Below, piece by piece: positions 2,448-37,378 of a stretch of DNA of 64,000 nt (the first letter of the stretch is position 1; each line of letters starts with the position of its first letter). Below the pieces are notes generated by a model. It did no database searches, was not told the DNA's origin, and was given only the letters and a program-made list of their open reading frames with translations. Location of the stretch: assembly GCF_003185895.1 (NCBI RefSeq), contig NZ_QHLY01000005.1, forward strand, positions 496,001-560,000, in the 5' to 3' direction. Source of the stretch: Cryobacterium arcticum. Its GTDB lineage: Bacteria > Actinomycetota > Actinomycetes > Actinomycetales > Microbacteriaceae. The position numbers were made by a program, and so were the translations under genes.

Positions 2448-3314
2448 ATGACGATCGCCGACGGTTTCCCAGGCCAGCGCATGCTCGTGCTCCCCCGCCC
2501 CCGGGTACGGGAGGCGCTGCAGCAGCCCGGCACCTCGCACCTGGTGGTGACCGACTGCGGCTACTTCCCCGAGGCGCACTCGCACGGCCGGGTGCGCACC
2601 ACCCCGATCTCGCAGGCGGTGATCATCGTCTGCGCCAAGGGAGGCGGCTGGTGCGAAACTCCGGCCGGCCGGTTCCCGGTCACCGCCGGCCAGGTGATCA
2701 TCCTGCCGCCGGGGCATCCGCACTCGTACGGCTCGAACGAAGACACCCCGTGGACGCTGTGGTGGCTGCACGTGACCGGCCGCGACCTGCCCGAGTTTCT
2801 CACCGCGGCCGGCATGACCCCTGACGCCCCGATCCGCACCCCGTCAGACGTGTACCGGGTAGTGGCGCTGATCGCCGAGGTGTTGCAGTCGATGGAGCGC
2901 GACACCACCACCGCGAGCCTGCTCGCTGCCGCCGGCGCCGCCTGGCACCTGATGGCCCTGCTCGCCTCGGACCGCTCCACCGGCGACGGCCGCTACGCCG
3001 CCATCGACCGCGCCGCCGAATACCTGCGCACCCACATCGACGACCACGTGAGCGTGGCCGAGCTCGCCGCCATGTCGCGGCTGAGCGGCTCCCACTTCGC
3101 CGCCCTCTTCAAGAGCCGCATCGGCTACCCCGCCCTGCAATACCAAACCCAGCTCCGGATGGCCCGGGCCCGCGAACTCCTAGACACCACCGACCAGCCC
3201 ATAGCCGCGGTCGCTGCCGCCACCGGCTACCCCGACAGCTTCTACTTCGCCCGCCAGTTCAAGAAGGTGCACGGCGTGACGCCGTTCGGGTACCGGGGGC
3301 AGCGGAAAGGGTGA
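2448..3314 (+). CDS. AraC family transcriptional regulator
   Basis: A 288-residue protein with the two-part AraC plan. The N-terminal cupin-like sensor (about 15-140) contains HSHGRVRTTPISQAVIIVCAKG-type strands and the PPGHPHSYG segment. The C-terminal double helix-turn-helix (about 190-285) has DHVSVAELAAMSRLSGSHFA and ends with the family signature GYPDSFYFARQFKKVHGVTPFGYR. It is divergent from the DUF5107 gene with 90 bp between starts, so it probably activates that gene in response to a sugar. The ligand cannot be read from the sequence. It is the last GC-rich gene before the AT-richer defence block. Confidence 0.9.
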   Translation: MTIADGFPGQRMLVLPRPRVREALQQPGTSHLVVTDCGYFPEAHSHGRVRTTPISQAVIIVCAKGGGWCETPAGRFPVTAGQVIILPPGHPHSYGSNEDTPWTLWWLHVTGRDLPEFLTAAGMTPDAPIRTPSDVYRVVALIAEVLQSMERDTTTASLLAAAGAAWHLMALLASDRSTGDGRYAAIDRAAEYLRTHIDDHVSVAELAAMSRLSGSHFAALFKSRIGYPALQYQTQLRMARARELLDTTDQPIAAVAAATGYPDSFYFARQFKKVHGVTPFGYRGQRKG

Positions 3315-3464
3315 GCGACCCTACGCTAATCCGATCATCCTCATTTGCACGGCACGTTCAGGATGAATGGTTGCTGGTTCTGGATCCACGACGGGAGTAT
3401 CGAGAGGTGAAAGCCTCCGTGGGTCATTGCTGCGAGGGCCAGTCTCCAATCGTACGCAACCTGC

Positions 3465-5600
3465 TCAGACGGTAATCTCTCTGTAAATTGGCTCTAGGAG
3501 ATCCCTGAGTTCTGTTTCGACATCATCGGCGTCCGACCCGTGCCGCTCGCGGTACGCAATAAGGGAAGGTGTTTCCGAGCAGAACGCCACCGCACCTCGA
3601 ACCTTGTCCCCGACTCGGTGTTCTCCTCCGTAATACGACTCGAGATCTCCCCGACGCAAGACATGGACTCTCTCTTCATGGAGGCCTCTCAGGACACTGT
3701 CCAAGTGAGCATCGACGCCAGCGTCGCCACTCTGCAGAACGATGAGCTTTTCACCCCCTCGCGGCCAGTCGAACAACCGAGTCATTTTCTCCTCGACGAC
3801 GGCTGCCATGTCAGCGGTGGGGCACGCACGCCATTCTGTGAACGAGTCTTGCGCCCCCTGCCAGAGGCCTCGCACATCGCCTCGACTAACTGCATCTCGA
3901 ATCTTCCGACCCGGGACGCTCTCCGAGGTGGCAGAAACTATGTGCCGGTCGACTTCGGCCATTAGAGCATCCCGTTTGGAAGTAAGAATCCCATCCTCAG
4001 TGAGATTCCTGAAGCCGTCGACGAGGGAATCCAGATCAGCAATTGCATGCACTGAAATGTCAAAGTGTGCGAAGAAGTCTCTGTAACGGCCGATGCTGGT
4101 CTTACCACCTGTCCGAATGAACACGATGTTCTGCTCGACACTGTCCCAATTGGAATTCAGCAGCTTGGCGAGATGAGGGAAGACTACAACGTCGCTATCG
4201 CCCTCCACTAGGACAACCGTGCGAGCGAATAGTGCCGCTTCATTGTTCTCATGGCACACGAGCTGAAATGCGTCTCTGGCAGAGAGCTGGCCCCGGAAGT
4301 CGACTGGAAAGGGTCGAACGCTTGACGGACAGGTTGCTGACTTTGGCGACTTGACCAGCTTAATGAACGTCGAGGTGGACTCGGCGCTGAAGAAGACCGG
4401 CGAGTGGGTAGTCACCATCACAGGGTGCTCGAGAGCAAAAATGGAAAGAGCGTCAAAAAGCTGTCGTTGTGCACGAGGGTGGAGATACAGTTCTGGCTCT
4501 TCGAAGAGCAGCAGGTAGCTTTGACGCGACTTGCTTGACTGGCTCCCTGTGGCCAATCCGCCCTCGCGAAGCGACGTGTACGCCCTTAAAATCGCGAAAG
4601 CAACAGTTCTCTTGAGCCCGTCGCCTTTGCTCCCGATGGGCCCCATATGGCCATCGTCAATCATCAGCTCCGCTCCTCCAAGAATGGTGCGCAGCTCAGG
4701 GGCAGGCACATCCATCCGGAGTTTTACGCCCGGAAAGCTTTCTTGAACGAACCGCTCAATAGTCGACTCGATCAACTTGACCTCTTCCAGCCTGAGGTCT
4801 TTCGTCTCACCGTCCGGCGCCTGAAACCTGCTCAGTTTGCGCTGCACTTCGGCAAATGCCTGCTCGATATCGCCGAACTGATCCGTGACCTCATCGAGCA
4901 GGATCTTGAGAAGTTTTCCGAAAGTCGCTGAATCCGAAGTCTTCATTTCGCTCGCGGAGTCCTTGACTGCCTCGATGTAAATAACCTCTGGCAAGAGAGA
5001 TCGCATGGCGGCCTCGATACCAGTCGGTGGTGGCCCATCCCGGAGCTCCAGTGCTTCCTCGGGCAAGGCACCGACGAGTTTTTCGCGCTCGTCGCGGATC
5101 GAAATTTGAGTCGGCCTGTCCGCGAGAACTTTATCCAGCTCGGGAATCAGTGAGACCGCCGCCATACGCAGAGCGGCACCGGACTTCCCTTTCATTGCAT
5201 CATTCAGGTCAGCCAACGACCATCCCGGGGCTTTCGGAACTTGCTGCATTATCTGCAGTATCGACTTGCTCCCCAACACCGCTGTCCTGACTAGAGTCAA
5301 GCGCCCGCTTATCAGCACGTTTGAAACACTCGCGCGGTTGCCCTCGTCGGCAATGCGCTCGAGGTCATCCTGTCCGATTTCTTTGAGCGTCACCTCGACG
5401 CGGATCGGTTTCGCTATGTCGCTAAAATCCGCGGATTCCAGCTTGCTTGGTGGAGTTCCCTTGAGAGCAAAATGCAGAGCGTGAAGCACCGAGGACTTCC
5501 CTGCATTGTTCTCACCGATCAGGCAGCCAAAATCTGAGAGCGGAATTTCAGTATCGAAGTGGGCGCGAAAATTCTGGATATGTAGAGCTTCAAATTTCAA
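3465..5600 (-). CDS. OLD-family ATPase with C-terminal TOPRIM nuclease domain
   Basis: A 711-residue protein starting at a TTG (5600), preceded by GGGGAAG as ribosome site. Domains in order: ABC/SMC-like ATPase with Walker A GENNAGKS (29-36), a signature-like segment GSKGDGLKR (322-330), Walker B LLLFEEPE (363-370) and the switch histidine in TTHSP (399). The TOPRIM domain follows, with the acidic site VEGDSD (465-470) and the DxD pair in ADLDS (522-524). Known OLD proteins, such as P2 Old and GajA of Gabija, are ATP-regulated nucleases used in phage defence; some retrons also use ATPase-TOPRIM partners. No UvrD-like GajB neighbour is present, so this is not a standard Gabija pair. It is divergent from the retron genes and shares their lower GC. 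Confidence 0.88.
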   Translation of the reverse strand: MKFEALHIQNFRAHFDTEIPLSDFGCLIGENNAGKSSVLHALHFALKGTPPSKLESADFSDIAKPIRVEVTLKEIGQDDLERIADEGNRASVSNVLISGRLTLVRTAVLGSKSILQIMQQVPKAPGWSLADLNDAMKGKSGAALRMAAVSLIPELDKVLADRPTQISIRDEREKLVGALPEEALELRDGPPPTGIEAAMRSLLPEVIYIEAVKDSASEMKTSDSATFGKLLKILLDEVTDQFGDIEQAFAEVQRKLSRFQAPDGETKDLRLEEVKLIESTIERFVQESFPGVKLRMDVPAPELRTILGGAELMIDDGHMGPIGSKGDGLKRTVAFAILRAYTSLREGGLATGSQSSKSRQSYLLLFEEPELYLHPRAQRQLFDALSIFALEHPVMVTTHSPVFFSAESTSTFIKLVKSPKSATCPSSVRPFPVDFRGQLSARDAFQLVCHENNEAALFARTVVLVEGDSDVVVFPHLAKLLNSNWDSVEQNIVFIRTGGKTSIGRYRDFFAHFDISVHAIADLDSLVDGFRNLTEDGILTSKRDALMAEVDRHIVSATSESVPGRKIRDAVSRGDVRGLWQGAQDSFTEWRACPTADMAAVVEEKMTRLFDWPRGGEKLIVLQSGDAGVDAHLDSVLRGLHEERVHVLRRGDLESYYGGEHRVGDKVRGAVAFCSETPSLIAYRERHGSDADDVETELRDLLEPIYREITV

Positions 5601-5927
5601 TTAACTTCCCCAATTGTTGAACACAACCATCATCTCGACAACGAGACTGTCCAGTCAGCCCCTCTTCGGGAGTCAGCGAGGCGGCCAATTGGCGGTGAGG
5701 GGCCAATCTGCTCAGTCCATCGCACCAAAGCCCCACACCTGAGTTGCATGGGCGGGGCGAGGGGGAACAAACCGTGGTGCGAAAGATACAACCTGGCATC
5801 AAGGGATAACGCTGGCTACAGCGTTGCCTCTTCAAGTCCGAATTCGCATATCGAAATTACCCGAGAACTGCCGTCCGCCCCGTGACCCCTATGGTGATCT
5901 TGAGCACTATGGGAAGGCGGCTCGACT
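5601..5927. other. Divergent intergenic region between OLD gene and retron operon
   Basis: This 327-bp stretch separates the starts of the OLD gene (minus) and the PRTase gene (plus) and must hold both promoters. An 81-codon minus ORF lies in it (5590-5835), but it has Cys/Pro/Arg-rich composition, no clear ribosome site and no recognisable domain, so I do not call it. GGGAAGG near 5911-5917 is the ribosome site for the PRTase gene. I could not pick a convincing -35/-10 pair. Confidence 0.5.
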
Positions 5928-7136
5928 ATGAAGCCCTCAGAGACCTCGGCCGGCAGAGTTTGGGTCCGTGGCTTTGCGGAGTCGGACAGAAGGATCGCGG
6001 TGCTCTTGCTCGACAGCCTTGAGATCCATGATCACGTCGAAGTCATGGCATCAATTGGTCAGCAAATACGTGCACTGGCCGAAAATGGGACCTCGGAAGC
6101 GCCAATTCTCCTGATTCCAATTCGATCCGGAGAGGACCTGCCGAGTCTGCCGGCAGGGCAGACGCAGCACGTTGCATACGAGACGTTTGATCCGGGGTCC
6201 CCCCTACCTGCCCTCCCCGGGAGCGAGGCCGAAGTTGGCTCCATGTTCCGCGGCCTGATCGACGCAGCGCCCAAAATATTCATTTCACCAGAGACTCCTC
6301 TCAACAGATTGCGAGAGTTGAAACCGAGGACCATTTGCCTAGCTACCGATTACAGCGGAAGCGGCAAACAAGCTTTGAAATTCACCGAGGCTTTTCGCGC
6401 TAACCGAACGATCGCAAGCTGGATTTCTTACGGACTAATCAAGCTTCAGGTCGTGACGTATGCCGCAAGCCTGGCGGCGTCCAATCGATTCAGGGCGTTG
6501 CAGAACACTAGCTTCTCGGCTGCCGAGTCCGCAAAATCAGCTAGGTCAGCCGACTGGAGCGATTCAGATCGAGCCCTCGTCGAGAAACTGTGCATCGATT
6601 ACGCCCACGACGCCGACCCCACTCCAGCACTGGGATACGGAAACAGCTTCGGCCTGTATATGACAAACATGCGGGTGCCGAACAACCTTCCACAGATACT
6701 GATCCGGGCAGGAGGCACTCACCCTGGACTCTTTCCCGGGCGGCTGGTTCCTCGCGACTTCGTCCTCGAGCTCCACACATATCGGCCGCCCCCGTCGCTC
6801 GAAAGGACACTTCGCAATCTGGGTGCTGAAGATCTTGCCGAGGCAATTCAAGACAAGACAAGACCAGTGAAAGGGCTGCGCGCTCTGGCTTCCCTTCATC
6901 TACTCAAGTACGGCATGTCCGAATCCGAGGTGAATGCGATGCTAGGGATGGATGCAGCGGAGGCGCGGAAGCTGAAGAGCACACTCATTGCCATGGGGTG
7001 CCTCACGCTCGACAGCGAACTCACCAAGCGAGGCCTGAGTGAGCTGCAACAAGTCTTTCACCGTGGCGTCACGAGACCACGGTACGACCACGTACCCCAC
7101 CCTCCTGTATGGTACGAACCAACCCAACTGAGGTGA
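5928..7136 (+). CDS. Retron accessory protein: PRTase-like domain plus C-terminal winged helix
   Basis: A 402-residue protein just upstream of the retron RNA and RT. Residues about 60-270 look like the phosphoribosyltransferase-like fold of conflict systems. A PRPP-loop-like motif follows a hydrophobic strand (ICLATDYSGSGKQA, D141-K147), and a later strand pair is marked GYGNSFG...VPNNLPQIL (236-258). Residues about 316-378 form a winged helix (LHLLKYGMSESEVNAML...LIAMGCLTL). In the published retron classification, PRTase-like plus winged-helix partners mark type III systems (recalled, not searched). It probably acts as the toxin or effector held in check by the RT-msDNA complex. Its TGA stop (7134-7136) lies inside the a1 arm of the retron RNA, so mRNA and ncRNA overlap. 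Codon use is AT-richer than in the sugar operons. Confidence 0.8.
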   Translation: MKPSETSAGRVWVRGFAESDRRIAVLLLDSLEIHDHVEVMASIGQQIRALAENGTSEAPILLIPIRSGEDLPSLPAGQTQHVAYETFDPGSPLPALPGSEAEVGSMFRGLIDAAPKIFISPETPLNRLRELKPRTICLATDYSGSGKQALKFTEAFRANRTIASWISYGLIKLQVVTYAASLAASNRFRALQNTSFSAAESAKSARSADWSDSDRALVEKLCIDYAHDADPTPALGYGNSFGLYMTNMRVPNNLPQILIRAGGTHPGLFPGRLVPRDFVLELHTYRPPPSLERTLRNLGAEDLAEAIQDKTRPVKGLRALASLHLLKYGMSESEVNAMLGMDAAEARKLKSTLIAMGCLTLDSELTKRGLSELQQVFHRGVTRPRYDHVPHPPVWYEPTQLR

Positions 7137-7349
7137 GATTCGTGCAATACCTAGGGATGAAGCCTGTCCATGCGACAGGCTCGGGCATGGAAGCATGTCA
7201 GGTTGCAGCACTCTGCGGTCGCCGGCCAAGCCAGCGATTCGGAGGCGACGGTGAGGCTTTCCTCCCCGAAGTCTCGATGAGAAAACCCTCACCGTCCCCC
7301 TCCGGGGGAGGTTCAAAGTAGGTGCGTAACGAAGCACACCTCAGTTGGG
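7123..7349 (+). ncRNA. Retron msr-msd RNA with a1/a2 inverted repeats
   Basis: The ends are fixed by long inverted arms. a1 is 7123-7153 and a2 is 7319-7349. CCCAACTGAGGTG pairs perfectly with CACCTCAGTTGGG (13 bp); after a 3-nt mismatch TTCGT pairs with ACGAA, then ACCTA pairs with TAGGT. Inside are the msr-type stem-loops GCCTGTC-CATGC-GACAGGC (7162-7180), GGCATG-GAAG-CATGTC (7184-7199, one G-U) and GCAG-CACT-CTGC (7205-7216). The msd-type long hairpin GACGGTGAGG (7247-7256) / CCTCACCGTC (7287-7296) encloses 30 nt, and CCTCC-GGG-GGAGG (7299-7311) follows. GTCGCC/GGCGAC (7218-7223/7244-7249) competes with the msd stem base. The order PRTase-a1-msr-msd-a2-RT is canonical. The exact msd boundary and branch G (perhaps in GAAGC, 7159-7163) are inferred. 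Confidence 0.85.
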
Positions 7350-7360
7350 CAATAACCTCG

Positions 7361-8464
7361 ATGTCAGGCGAGCGGCCCGCGCTGGCAGACGCGATGATGA
7401 GGCAATCCGAAACTCTTCGCCGCACAGGGGCCCCGGTCCTGTACTCCCTGAAACACCTGGCGCTCACTACAGGGGTGGAATACGGGTACTTGCGTCATGT
7501 GATTCAGCGCAACGCGCCTGCGTACAAAGCAATCAGGATCCCAAAGAATACGGGTGGCTATCGGGATCTTCTTTCGCCGACAGACTCTCTGAAACACGTT
7601 CAACGCTGGATTCTCCACGAAATTCTCGATACGGTCCCTCGGCACATCAACAACTTCGCGTATTTTCGAGATGTGACGGCGCGGGAATGCGCCATTCGAC
7701 ACGCTGGCGCGACCTGGATGATCAAGACTGATCTCCATCAGTACTTTCCATCAATTTCGGAGAAATTGGTCTACGAGGTGTTTCAAGGGCTTGGCTATTC
7801 AAGGCTCCTCTCGTTCGAATTGGCCCGGCTTTGCACCTGGAACAAGCTTGGGCGCTTGGCACCAACCGGAGCAGTGCCGCGAAGCCATGGGAGCGTGCGC
7901 TCACTGCCGTATCCGCCAGCTCCACTTGGGTTCTTGCCGCAGGGCGCCCCGACTAGTGGAGCGCTGGCCAATGCGGCGACAAGGCGACTCGATGACGCGC
8001 TTTCAGATTTTGCGATCGCGAACCATCTGATCTACACGAGGTACTCGGACGACATGACTTTCTCCAGCCCAAGTGCATTTAGCCGGACCGTCGCGAGTGA
8101 GTTTGTAGTCCAGATCCGCAAGATTGTCACCGCCTCCGGTCTTGCTTTGCACTCACAGAAAACGAAAGTAATACCTCCCGGCGCTCGCAAGATAGTCCTA
8201 GGCATGCTGATCACGCCGGGCGGAGTTGGAATCCTCCCGGAACAACGCCGCACGATCGACCTCTACGTTCACGCTGTTTCCACATACGGACCAGTCGACT
8301 ATGCGGCACGAAGAGGCTTTGATTCTGTTTTTTCATTCATCAATCACGTTGAGGGCTGGCTTGCCTATCTCTCCCACATCGACGCATTGTGGACGGCGGG
8401 ACGAAGCAGATCCTGGAACGACGCGCTCCGCAAACACCTGATTGAAGTGAGCTCGCTCGGCTGA
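7361..8464 (+). CDS. ret: Retron reverse transcriptase
   Basis: I place the start at ATG 7361, because the upstream GTG at 7322 lies within the a2 repeat; this gives 367 residues, normal for retron RTs. Visible motifs: RT1-like IPKNTGGYRDLLSPTDSLKHV (split: IPKNTGG / YRDLL, 60-70), catalytic D124 in IKTDLHQYFPSI, FLPQGAPTSGALANAA (191-206), the YSDD catalytic box (228-231, YADD in most retrons), SQKTKV (265-270) and VLG (279-281, VTG in many retrons). The NAxxH element appears as CAIRH (110-114). It would prime from the msr branch G and copy msd to msDNA. The ribosome site is weak, so translation may depend on the upstream RNA. Confidence 0.9.
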   Translation: MSGERPALADAMMRQSETLRRTGAPVLYSLKHLALTTGVEYGYLRHVIQRNAPAYKAIRIPKNTGGYRDLLSPTDSLKHVQRWILHEILDTVPRHINNFAYFRDVTARECAIRHAGATWMIKTDLHQYFPSISEKLVYEVFQGLGYSRLLSFELARLCTWNKLGRLAPTGAVPRSHGSVRSLPYPPAPLGFLPQGAPTSGALANAATRRLDDALSDFAIANHLIYTRYSDDMTFSSPSAFSRTVASEFVVQIRKIVTASGLALHSQKTKVIPPGARKIVLGMLITPGGVGILPEQRRTIDLYVHAVSTYGPVDYAARRGFDSVFSFINHVEGWLAYLSHIDALWTAGRSRSWNDALRKHLIEVSSLG

Positions 8465-8520
8465 GCCGGAATCCAAGTCTCCCCAAATGTCTAGCGCCCC
8501 ACCAGAATTCGCCCGCTTGC

Positions 8521-8578
8521 TTGACATCCACAAAAACGTTTATGTAAGCTCTCACCCACATCAACAAAAACGTTTTTG
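8521..8578 (+). promoter_or_regulatory. Promoter of the lacI gene with two LacI-type operators
   Basis: A perfect -35 TTGACA (8521-8526) is followed after 16 bp by TGTAAG (8543-8548) as -10. Operator 1, CAAAAACGTTTATG (8531-8544), lies between them. Operator 2, CAAAAACGTTTTTG (8565-8578), is a perfect 14-bp palindrome just before the ATG at 8594. The central CG with A/T flanks is typical of LacI-family sites, so the regulator probably represses itself. Confidence 0.75.
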
Positions 8579-8593
8579 GGATTGGGTTCAACG

Positions 8594-9613
8594 ATGAGCA
8601 AGCGTGTGGGTATTCGAGAGGTCGCGGCCGCGGCCGGCGTCTCCGTGACGACCGTGTCGCACTCACTCAGCGGCGGCGGACAGATCAGCGACGCTACCCG
8701 GGAACGGGTGCGGTCGGTGGCCGAAGGCCTCAACTACGCACCCAACCGGCTCGCCAGCGGACTCCGCAGCAAGCGCTCGCAGATCATCGGCTTCGTCAGC
8801 GACGAGATCTCCACCACGCCCTACGCCGGCAACGTGCTGCTCGGCGCACAGGAGGCCGCCGCCGCGAACGACCAGGTGCTCATGGTCGTCAACTCCAACC
8901 GCAACTCCCGCATCGAAGACCGCGGCATCGATGCGCTGCTGCAGCACAGCGTCGACGGCATCATCTACGCCCGCATGTACCACCAGGCCGTTAAACTGCC
9001 CGCCGCGCTGAGTGGCGTTCCCACGGTTCTGCTTGACGCCTCCAGCGACCGCACCGACCTCTCCTCGGTGGTGCCCGACGAAGAGGGTGCCGCCCTCACC
9101 GCGATGGAGCACCTGCTCGCCGCCGGCCACCGCCGCATCGGCTATCTGGGCAACATCGACGAGATCCCCGCCACCCGCGGCCGCCTGGCCGGGTACCGTG
9201 CGGCTCTGGCCGCACACGGCATTCCGTTCGACGAGTCCCTCGTCACCGTGGGCGAGTCCATGACCGCGCCGGGCCGTGACGCGGCCAGCCGGGTGCTCGC
9301 CCTGGCCGACCGGCCCACGGCGCTGTTCTGCTTCAACGACCGGATGGCCATGGGCGCCTACCAGGCCGCGCACCTGGCCGGCCTGGAGATCCCCCGCGAC
9401 CTGAGCATCGTGAGCATCGACAACTTCGAGGTGCTGGCCGACGCGCTGCTGCCCGGGCTCACCTCGATCGCCTTGCCGCACTACGAGATGGGCCGCTGGG
9501 CTATCGAGCGGCTCGCCGCTGAACTGGCCGGTGAGGCCGATTCGGCGCCGCAACAGATTCAGATGCCCTGCCCGCTCGTGCTGCGGCAGTCAGTTGGCCC
9601 GCCTCCGCGCTAA
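8594..9613 (+). CDS. LacI family regulator of the fructoside operon
   Basis: A 339-residue repressor. The HTH and hinge are at the N-terminus (VGIREVAAAAGVSVTTVSHS; LNYAPNRLASGLRSKRS), followed by a periplasmic-binding-protein-like sensor (about 65-335) with FCFNDRMAMGAYQAA and the SIDNFEVL strand. I chose ATG 8594 because the upstream TTG sits in the operator palindrome. It leads the ABC transporter/GH32/kinase genes in the same direction, separated by a hairpin at 9640-9663. The inducer is presumably a fructoside or fructose-containing sugar, inferred from the operon. Confidence 0.92.
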   Translation: MSKRVGIREVAAAAGVSVTTVSHSLSGGGQISDATRERVRSVAEGLNYAPNRLASGLRSKRSQIIGFVSDEISTTPYAGNVLLGAQEAAAANDQVLMVVNSNRNSRIEDRGIDALLQHSVDGIIYARMYHQAVKLPAALSGVPTVLLDASSDRTDLSSVVPDEEGAALTAMEHLLAAGHRRIGYLGNIDEIPATRGRLAGYRAALAAHGIPFDESLVTVGESMTAPGRDAASRVLALADRPTALFCFNDRMAMGAYQAAHLAGLEIPRDLSIVSIDNFEVLADALLPGLTSIALPHYEMGRWAIERLAAELAGEADSAPQQIQMPCPLVLRQSVGPPPR

Positions 9614-36459: not shown

Positions 36460-37262
36460 CGGAGCACCGCCAACCGAGCCACATCGTCGGCGGTGACGCC
36501 GGCCAACGCGTCCAGGAAAGCGACGGCGAAGCTGCCCGGGCCGGTGGCGTTCTCCGCGGCGATCTCGGCCGCGATCGTGTAGACCGTGGCGGCGGCCACG
36601 GTGGTGGCGAAGCTGTCGCCGTCGACCGCGGCGAAGGCGGCCATCACCGCGCCGAGGGCGCAGCCACCGCCGGTGACCCGGGTGAGCAGCGGATGCCCGT
36701 TGGCGATCCGCACCAGCTCGCGACCGTCGGTGAGGAGGTCGACCGGGCCGGAGACGGCGATCACGCCGCCGGTCTTCCCGGCGAGCGCCGACGCCGCCTC
36801 GAGCGCGGCATCCACCTGGTCGGCAGAATCGACACCCCGGCCGCCGGATCCGCCGCCCGCGAGGGCGATGATCTCCGACGCGTTGCCGCGAACCACGCTG
36901 GGCCGCAGGTCACGGAGAGCGAAGGCGAGCGGGGTGCGCACCGGCAGGAACCCGATCGCGACGGGGTCGAGCACCCACGGGGTGGCCGCGTCGTTCGCGG
37001 CGACGACCGCCTCGAGCATGGCGTCCCGTTGCTCGGCCGTCGGGGTGCCGAGGTTGACGAGCAGGCCGGAGGCGACCCGGCCGAACGGACCGGCCTCCCC
37101 CGGAATGTCGACCATCGCGGGGGCCGCCCCGAGCGCGAGGAGCACGTTCGCGGTGAAGTTCACCACGACGCTATTGGTGATGCACTGCACCAGGGGCGAC
37201 TGGGATCGCACCTCGTCGAGCGCTGAACAGGTGAATGAAATCAGGTCTTTTGGCGTGCGCAT
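36456..37262 (-). CDS. thiM: Hydroxyethylthiazole kinase
   Basis: 268 residues from ATG 37262; an in-frame ATG at 37274 lies within the riboswitch end. Family signatures are [59 protein letters not shown] and the active-site [16 protein letters not shown] with the catalytic Cys. It phosphorylates salvaged thiazole. First gene of the TPP-riboswitch operon; no de novo genes (thiC, thiG) are nearby, so the locus is for salvage. Confidence 0.95.
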
Positions 37263-37272
37263 TGAGCGCGAC

Positions 37273-37345
37273 ATCCCTTCGCTAGTACTAACTAGATCAG
37301 GTTCAACGGGTGTTATCTCAGCTCCCAGTTGGGAGCACCCCGTGT
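37273..37345 (-). promoter_or_regulatory. TPP riboswitch (THI element)
   Basis: On the minus strand, reading from 37344, the order is CACGGGGTGC, hairpin CTCCCAACTGGGAG, the conserved GCTGAGAT, AACACCCGTTGAACCTGATC and TAGTTAGTACTAGCGAAGGGA. These are the P2/P3 and P4/P5 core blocks of TPP riboswitches. The final AAGGGA is probably the thiM ribosome site, so bound TPP would hide it and block translation. Confidence 0.96.
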
Positions 37346-37378
37346 CACATGGCTTTGTTGCAGCGTAGTGCAGCCGGG

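Follow-up and report, generated by a model that had tools for sequence, protein, structure and literature searches.

A Class 1-like OLD nuclease gene and a type III-A retron, probably independent modules, in a variable chromosomal slot of Cryobacterium arcticum

Introduction

In the window, as we call the whole 64,000-nucleotide stretch of Cryobacterium arcticum DNA that was analysed, a gene of the OLD family lies beside a retron operon. The question raised by this locus is whether the OLD gene belongs to the retron as an additional effector or constitutes a second system, and the original prediction had regarded both a four-part retron and a compact defence island as possible. As retrons of type I-B are described as using OLD effectors (PMC10568477), the idea of a four-part retron is a reasonable one. 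The features of the locus, in window coordinates, are as follows.

2448–3314, forward strand: AraC-family regulator gene, left flank (ORF; DNA match of congeners stops at 3312–3317 in four genomes)
3315–8520, no strand: low-GC island, the variable slot between AraC and LacI (GC; right edge in congeners)
3465–5600, reverse strand: OLD-family ABC ATPase and TOPRIM nuclease, 711 aa (ORF, Pfam, PADLOC, motif alignment, AlphaFold2 model)
5601–5927, no strand: divergent intergenic region from the OLD start to the PRTase start, 327 bp (promoter scan, blastn)
5928–7136, forward strand: PRTase-CE and winged-helix (wHTH) effector of a type III-A retron, 402 aa (Pfam PF24390 and PF24409; PADLOC PRTase_III-A, 1.9e-57)
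7123–7349 (approximate), forward strand: retron ncRNA, msr-msd (inverted repeats, fold z, alignment with four relatives)
7322–8464, forward strand: retron reverse transcriptase (RT), 380 aa, with a YSDD motif (PADLOC RT_III-A, 1.2e-122; Pfam RVT_1)
8576–9613, forward strand: LacI-family regulator gene, right flank, the beginning of a sugar ABC-transporter cluster (ORF; matches in congeners)

The OLD-family gene

The OLD reading frame contains no internal stop codon and begins with a TTG codon. Four bases 5′ of this codon, the sequence GGGGAAG provides its own ribosome-binding site, and in an alignment of 34 sequences methionine occupies the start column in at least 90%. The Pfam domains AAA_15 (7.1e-31) and OLD-like_TOPRIM (4.7e-16) both exceed their curated cut-offs. 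The leading PADLOC profile is Old (296 bits, 1.4e-88), followed at a distance by AriA (117 bits) and the best GajA profile (108 bits). The original description of a full OLD-like ATPase-TOPRIM was therefore accurate, as was the statement that it lacks a GajB-type helicase: no UvrD/GajB gene is adjacent, and the gene beyond the 3′ end of OLD is the AraC regulator on the opposite strand. The host genome contains a single copy of the OLD gene and a single copy of the retron RT.

With regard to the catalytic motifs, we aligned the window protein with 35 relatives (36 sequences in all). The ATPase exhibits a Walker A motif GENNAGKSS (29–37), a Walker B region LLLFEEPE (363–370) and an H-loop TTHS (397–400), in which the residues expected of an ABC ATPase, K35, E367/E368 and H399, are invariant. 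The TOPRIM domain exhibits E466, D470, D522, D524, E654 and K666, which cover the metal A and the metal B/basic positions; E466, D522 and D524 are invariant, and D470, E654 and K666 are nearly so. The residue at the first metal-B position, D652, is present in the window protein, but the position is unconserved in the wider subfamily, where the consensus is alanine. The matching of these TOPRIM residues to those of the Ts and P2 proteins is our reading of the catalytic residues of OLD nucleases given in PMC7049728.

Confidence in the AlphaFold2 model is high (mean pLDDT 85.8). In it, some 115 residues (527–642) form a helical insert that separates the metal-A DxD from the E654 region. Among the VIA-align rows that cover the whole protein, the OLD of T. 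scotoductus (6p74; Z 19.4, rmsd 6.3, 450 residues aligned) and GajA (8x5i and others; Z 18.6, rmsd 4.8, 423 residues aligned) are tied, and Foldseek places them level (5e-17 and 3e-17, respectively). As 19 of the first 20 VIA-align rows are SMC/Rad50 heads over residues 1–457, the fold rank has no power to separate the OLD classes, and the fold search does not tell Class 1 OLD and GajA apart. Chains of the retron Eco8 are present in the Foldseek list and absent among the 50 VIA-align rows shown.

The retron

The retron RT scores 409 bits against the III-A profile versus 101 bits against the I-B profile of PADLOC. It is accompanied by a PRTase-wHTH effector, and a structured ncRNA lies between effector and RT. 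The a1 and a2 segments of this ncRNA (7123–7143 and 7329–7349) form a 21-nt inverted repeat with 90% complementarity, and the arms of the msd hairpin (7244–7269 and 7274–7299) comprise 26 nt each and are 81% complementary. The stretch 7100–7340 folds 4.3 s.d. better than shuffled sequences (z −4.3), and the ncRNA aligns with the same interval in four relatives. In the consensus fold, one or more sequences differ on both sides yet still pair for 31 of the 66 predicted pairs, although the overall covariation term is unfavourable (+1.28). As the PRTase-wHTH effector and the ncRNA with its a1/a2 repeat are both present, the retron is complete, with an effector of its own and nothing missing. The nearest relative found, in genome G565, has an RT that is 65% and a PRTase that is 56% identical.

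The OLD gene is indeed head-to-head with this operon, as first described, with 327 bp between the divergent starts. A consensus promoter scan of 5601–5927 found no more sites than in shuffled sequences and no convincing sigma-70 sites, and blastn of the same region against G565 gave no match.

A variable slot between AraC and LacI

The two modules are located in an island of low GC content: 56.6% for 3331–8520, compared with 70.9% to its left and 67.6% to its right. The GC3 values of OLD (0.62), PRTase (0.63) and RT (0.63) are alike, as against 0.92 for AraC, 0.89 for LacI and 0.93 for the sugar-binding protein, and both modules therefore look foreign. The similar composition reported at the outset thus held for OLD and retron, whereas "AT-rich" applies in a relative sense only, the island still having a GC content of about 57%. 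As their GC3 values are alike and they share a 327-bp divergent region, OLD and retron may have arrived together and may be under shared regulation; no remnant of the AraC end was seen between them.

The edges of the island were located by comparison with congeners. A relative of the LacI gene (at 1e-80 or below) was found in 10 of 56 congeners, with 86–93% identity in nine and 65% in the tenth. In all ten, similarity to the window DNA starts at 8512–8520, just to the right of the RT stop codon. On the left, the AraC gene is present, whole or in part, on the same contig in four of them (G409, G397, G423 and G433), and similarity stops at 3312–3317, which is the AraC stop codon; AraC was not found at 1e-60 in the other six. 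Just inside the conserved right edge, the window carries two 21-nt direct repeats at 8524–8578 (about ACATCnACAAAAACGTTT), which are probably LacI operator sites. Elsewhere in the window, a TPP riboswitch is present at 37257–37352 on the reverse strand (74.4 bits).

Between these edges the congeners carry different cargo, mostly of 55–62% GC and at most 67% among the ORFs printed. G397 exhibits a TIR_2 protein and a HipA-like protein that falls below the Pfam cut-off; G409 exhibits AbiJ_NTD4, a CAP12-type TIR protein and an M78 peptidase; G423 exhibits a HATPase, an N6-methylase and a metallo-beta-lactamase-fold protein; and G433 exhibits transposases. As the same two edges enclose other cargo in congeners, OLD and retron are one filling of a variable slot, which, judging from its gene content, is a predicted defence hotspot in several species of the genus. 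In G409, a second, partial AraC 3′ end of about 310 bases (locus L306, 4065–4376, matching window 3004–3316) lies between two cargo blocks, which suggests that cargo was inserted repeatedly, one block after another, at the 3′ end of AraC. The matches listed by a literature search on actinobacterial defence hotspots contained nothing on the AraC/LacI slot. This would be a compact actinobacterial hotspot with sharp edges, whose cargo across congeners comprises TIR, AbiJ-like, methylase, OLD and retron genes, and the unexplained genes within it are good candidates for defence functions.

Neighbourhoods of type III-A retrons

In all, 26 candidate III-A loci were fetched, and the 21 with both RT and PRTase were kept, L047, L207, L208, L283 and L284 being dropped for want of one or the other. 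These 21 are not all independent, as L198 and L199 look like one plasmid backbone. None of the 21 contains a close relative of the window OLD, and no OLD gene is present within the 17 kb fetched around the retron of G565. Some OLD-family gene is found near four of them: L044, from the same genus as the window, L200 and L206, from Rhizobium plasmids, and L286, from Rhizobiales, in the family of genome G1195. These four genes score best as GajA (639, 707, 623 and 692 bits, respectively), and GajB helicases adjoin them (419, 736, 412 and 585 bits). The arrangement is divergent in L044 and L200 and co-directional in L206 and L286, with varying spacing. Since GajA and GajB are adjacent at all four loci and the orientation varies, the neighbour is a whole Gabija system and not a retron part. 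L206 carries another ATPase, which is cut off (56 bits) and was left out of the OLD count.

Two of the fetched retrons have peculiarities of their own. At L206 (6399–7699), in Rhizobium sp. L51/94, the PRTase is split over two overlapping frames and the effector is probably broken. L197 comes from a conjugative plasmid of Shigella sonnei; its type III-A retron adjoins IS26 and mph(A), and qnrS1 is located at a distance of about 8 kb.

Loci of other RTs served as controls. An OLD-family gene is present at 1 of 11 plasmid loci, which were hand-picked, with a preference for large records, from the 45 rows listed for 117 records; the case is the Gabija of a Haematobacter plasmid (L317). A Burkholderia locus (L101) was excluded because it came from the OLD side, and its inclusion gives 2/12; nor does the OLD count include the PtuA ATPase of L326 (80 bits). 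Among 60 actinobacterial RT loci, a weak control consisting mostly of one long-RT type and including some short loci, none has an OLD-family match above 50 bits and seven have matches of 16–34 bits. The count of 4/21 near III-A retrons, promising in itself, is weakened by these controls (1/11 and 0/60), and an excess of OLD-family neighbours at III-A retrons is not demonstrated by these sequence comparisons. In L317 (7887–13854), an RT of about 525 aa is followed after 108 bp by co-directional GajA (890 bits) and GajB (819 bits), which possibly form an RT-Gabija unit.

Relatives of the OLD protein

Within the host family (398 genomes), OLD matches occur in 64 genomes. The only other genome with a full-length close relative is G628 (50%), all remaining matches being partial and weak. 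The G628 gene adjoins a Hachiman system (HamA 294 bits, HamB 1012 bits). Scanning a collection of species genomes with the OLD alignment yielded 195 relatives, of which the best 80 (32–48% identical) were kept. In the flanks of these best 80 of 195, up to 10 kb each, shorter where contigs end, and 1.41 Mb in total, no III-A RT or PRTase was found; one locus, L144, has a weak RT-like match. For 45 of the 80 loci, the genome was compared with the III-A RT profile: eight genomes match at 1e-10 or below, and one has a strong III-A RT (G1195, 576 bits, the next scores being 257 and 226 bits). The retron of G1195 lies on another contig than the OLD relative, with no OLD gene within 18 kb. Of four further relatives on plasmids (L099–L102), the one from Burkholderia (L101) lies 6.4 kb from an RT that is classified as RT_other and has no PRTase.

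The neighbours of OLD relatives are diverse and include ParA/ParB on Streptomyces linear plasmids and a DNA methylase, among others. A three-sequence GajB model, whose low sensitivity (true GajB of other subtypes scored only 35–45 bits) makes misses possible, matches 5 of the 80 loci, all from Bacteroidota and at about 2 kb. SbcC-like and SbcD-like genes stand beside OLD relatives at 6 of 83 loci, five from Bacteroidota (L155, L161, L164, L166 and L169) and one from Polaromonas (L150). In the five Bacteroidota loci, a UvrD-type helicase gene additionally follows the OLD relative at about 2 kb, and the gene order suggests a conserved SbcD-SbcC-OLD-X-UvrD block. At L155, the one locus checked, Pfam confirmed SbcD_C, SbcC_Walker_B and UvrD-helicase domains. 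The OLD relative is accompanied at 5 of 83 loci (L173, L174, L176, L178 and L181) by a nearby protein of about 770 aa, which is encoded immediately downstream in the loci displayed; in L176 it exhibits an nSTAND3 NTPase domain (Pfam).

An origin as prophage or viral cargo was rejected on an RT alignment scan of viral contigs, which found no RT relative and had none of its 34 pattern matches confirmed, and on a comparison of OLD with phage records, which matched only P2 Old (two records, 22%).

Relationship between the OLD gene and the retron

The OLD nuclease could be a second effector of a four-part III-A retron, whose RT-msDNA complex would also restrain it. The head-to-head layout, the like GC3 values and the OLD effectors of type I-B retrons are in keeping with this, as are whole defence systems that retrons have reportedly captured as new effectors (PMC12548924). 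We nevertheless rejected it as very unlikely, although the two neighbours may still co-operate functionally in this strain. The retron already has a PRTase effector of its own; its RT is of type III-A, not of the OLD-using type I-B; the OLD protein is far below the cut-off for Eco8 effectors; and the two-sided co-occurrence is negative in the loci sampled (0/21 and 0/80). The comparative check proposed with the original prediction was thus carried out in both directions, and homologues of OLD and retron were not adjacent elsewhere in the sampled loci, which was the outcome named beforehand as speaking against an extra effector. In this way, the two-sided neighbourhood test answers a plausible reading.

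It is also quite unlikely that OLD-family nucleases recur as accessory neighbours beside III-A retrons, as Gabija elsewhere and as a helicase-less OLD here, with the two systems covering each other's escape routes, for example by both answering phage inhibition of DNA-end processing. GajA/GajB does occur near one actinobacterial and three Rhizobium-type III-A retrons, and according to PMC12407980, RecBCD antagonism has been suggested as what both retron Ec48 and OLD respond to, with RecBCD-antagonising phages as the proposed targets of Gabija. Against this, the orientation and spacing of Gabija vary, 1 of the 11 plasmid loci of other RTs has Gabija as well, the actinobacterial set (0/60) is a weak control, and the counts are too small to show an excess. 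In a further reading, which we consider very unlikely, the divergent retron and OLD would jointly guard DNA-end processing in two functional layers, with a shared regulatory region and overlapping phage triggers, namely inhibitors of the host end-processing nuclease, such that a phage escaping one module would trip the other. A link of the window OLD to DNA ends would fit the sbcD/sbcC neighbours of some OLD relatives. If true, such a guard would be a lineage-specific, nascent coupling of an OLD nuclease to a type of retron that had no such partner in the other loci sampled. Among the matches listed by a literature search, which did not include the founding retron surveys, the titles and the beginnings of the abstracts revealed no paper describing OLD beside a III-A retron.

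OLD and retron are very probably two independent anti-phage modules loaded into one chromosomal defence hotspot. The retron has its cognate effector and ncRNA, co-occurrence is negative from both sides in the sampled loci, OLD relatives sit with unrelated partners, and the AraC/LacI slot holds other cargo in congeners. Moreover, the ATPase and TOPRIM motifs of OLD are intact and the Old profile of PADLOC leads. The compact island with a second system is hence the part of the original prediction that gained support, from the effector of the retron itself, the independent distribution of the modules and the variable slot.

Proposed mode of action

The first module, transcribed leftward, would be a stand-alone, Class 1-like OLD in which an ABC ATPase head of the SMC/Rad50 type is fused to a TOPRIM nuclease; the second, transcribed rightward, would be the complete type III-A retron. 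We infer the defence function, triggers and targets of both from known relatives. By analogy with these, the OLD ATPase would restrain the nuclease until a state caused by the phage is sensed, which, on the model of P2 Old, could be interference with the processing of DNA ends in the host. The freed nuclease would cut nucleic acid and the infection would abort, so that the window OLD probably acts alone as an abortive-infection nuclease. P2 Old is described as activated on sensing RecBC inhibition and as cleaving a host tRNA (PMC13261556). The same source attributes to E. coli YbjD anti-phage phenotypes on induced expression for which the TOPRIM domain is dispensable, and the nuclease domain may therefore not be the acting part in the window OLD. 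In parallel, RT, ncRNA and msDNA would keep the PRTase-wHTH effector inactive until it is released by a phage trigger, as retrons are described as holding their effectors in check with RT-msDNA (PMC12548924).

Comparison with known systems

The window OLD shares with Class 1 OLDs (P2 Old, T. scotoductus OLD 6p74 and E. coli YbjD) the combination of ABC ATPase and TOPRIM, the lack of an adjacent UvrD/GajB helicase partner and the lack of an RT in the same operon, and 6p74 has the highest VIA-align Z among the whole-protein rows, tied with GajA. In contrast, it is longer than 6p74 (711 versus 528 aa), with its helical insert, and the first metal-B residue D652 is unconserved in its wider subfamily. 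Class 1 OLDs are described as single genes away from other candidate defence genes (PMC10568477), whereas a III-A retron lies 327 bp from the window OLD. As the nearest family relative, in G628, likewise stands beside Hachiman, we use the label "Class 1-like"; stand-alone (Class 1) OLD nucleases are the nearest class. The window OLD would thus be a long-form member of a stand-alone class, the role of which in anti-phage defence is, according to PMC13261556, still poorly understood.

GajA of Gabija (Class 2 OLD) has the same two domains and a fold score tied with that of Class 1 OLD, but no GajB adjoins the window OLD, and GajA profiles reach at most 108 bits versus 296 for Old. A Gabija that has lost its helicase is not favoured, as the Old profile far exceeds every GajA profile and 75 of 80 relatives have no GajB-type match in their flanks with the three-sequence model, which may have missed some. 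The effectors of retron Eco8 and type I-B (Class 3 OLD) are likewise OLD-like proteins beside a retron RT, and Foldseek matches Eco8 chains. However, the window OLD reaches 39.7 bits with the Eco8-effector model (retron_eff_Eco8), versus a cut-off of 250. There is also no type I-B RT and ncRNA in one cassette with it; instead, the RT is of type III-A with its own effector, and OLD is divergent from it.

The window retron resembles type III-A retrons in its order of PRTase, ncRNA and RT, its profile matches and its a1/a2 repeat, without essential difference, and represents an actinobacterial member. The locus is thus a Class 1-like OLD beside a normal type III-A retron.
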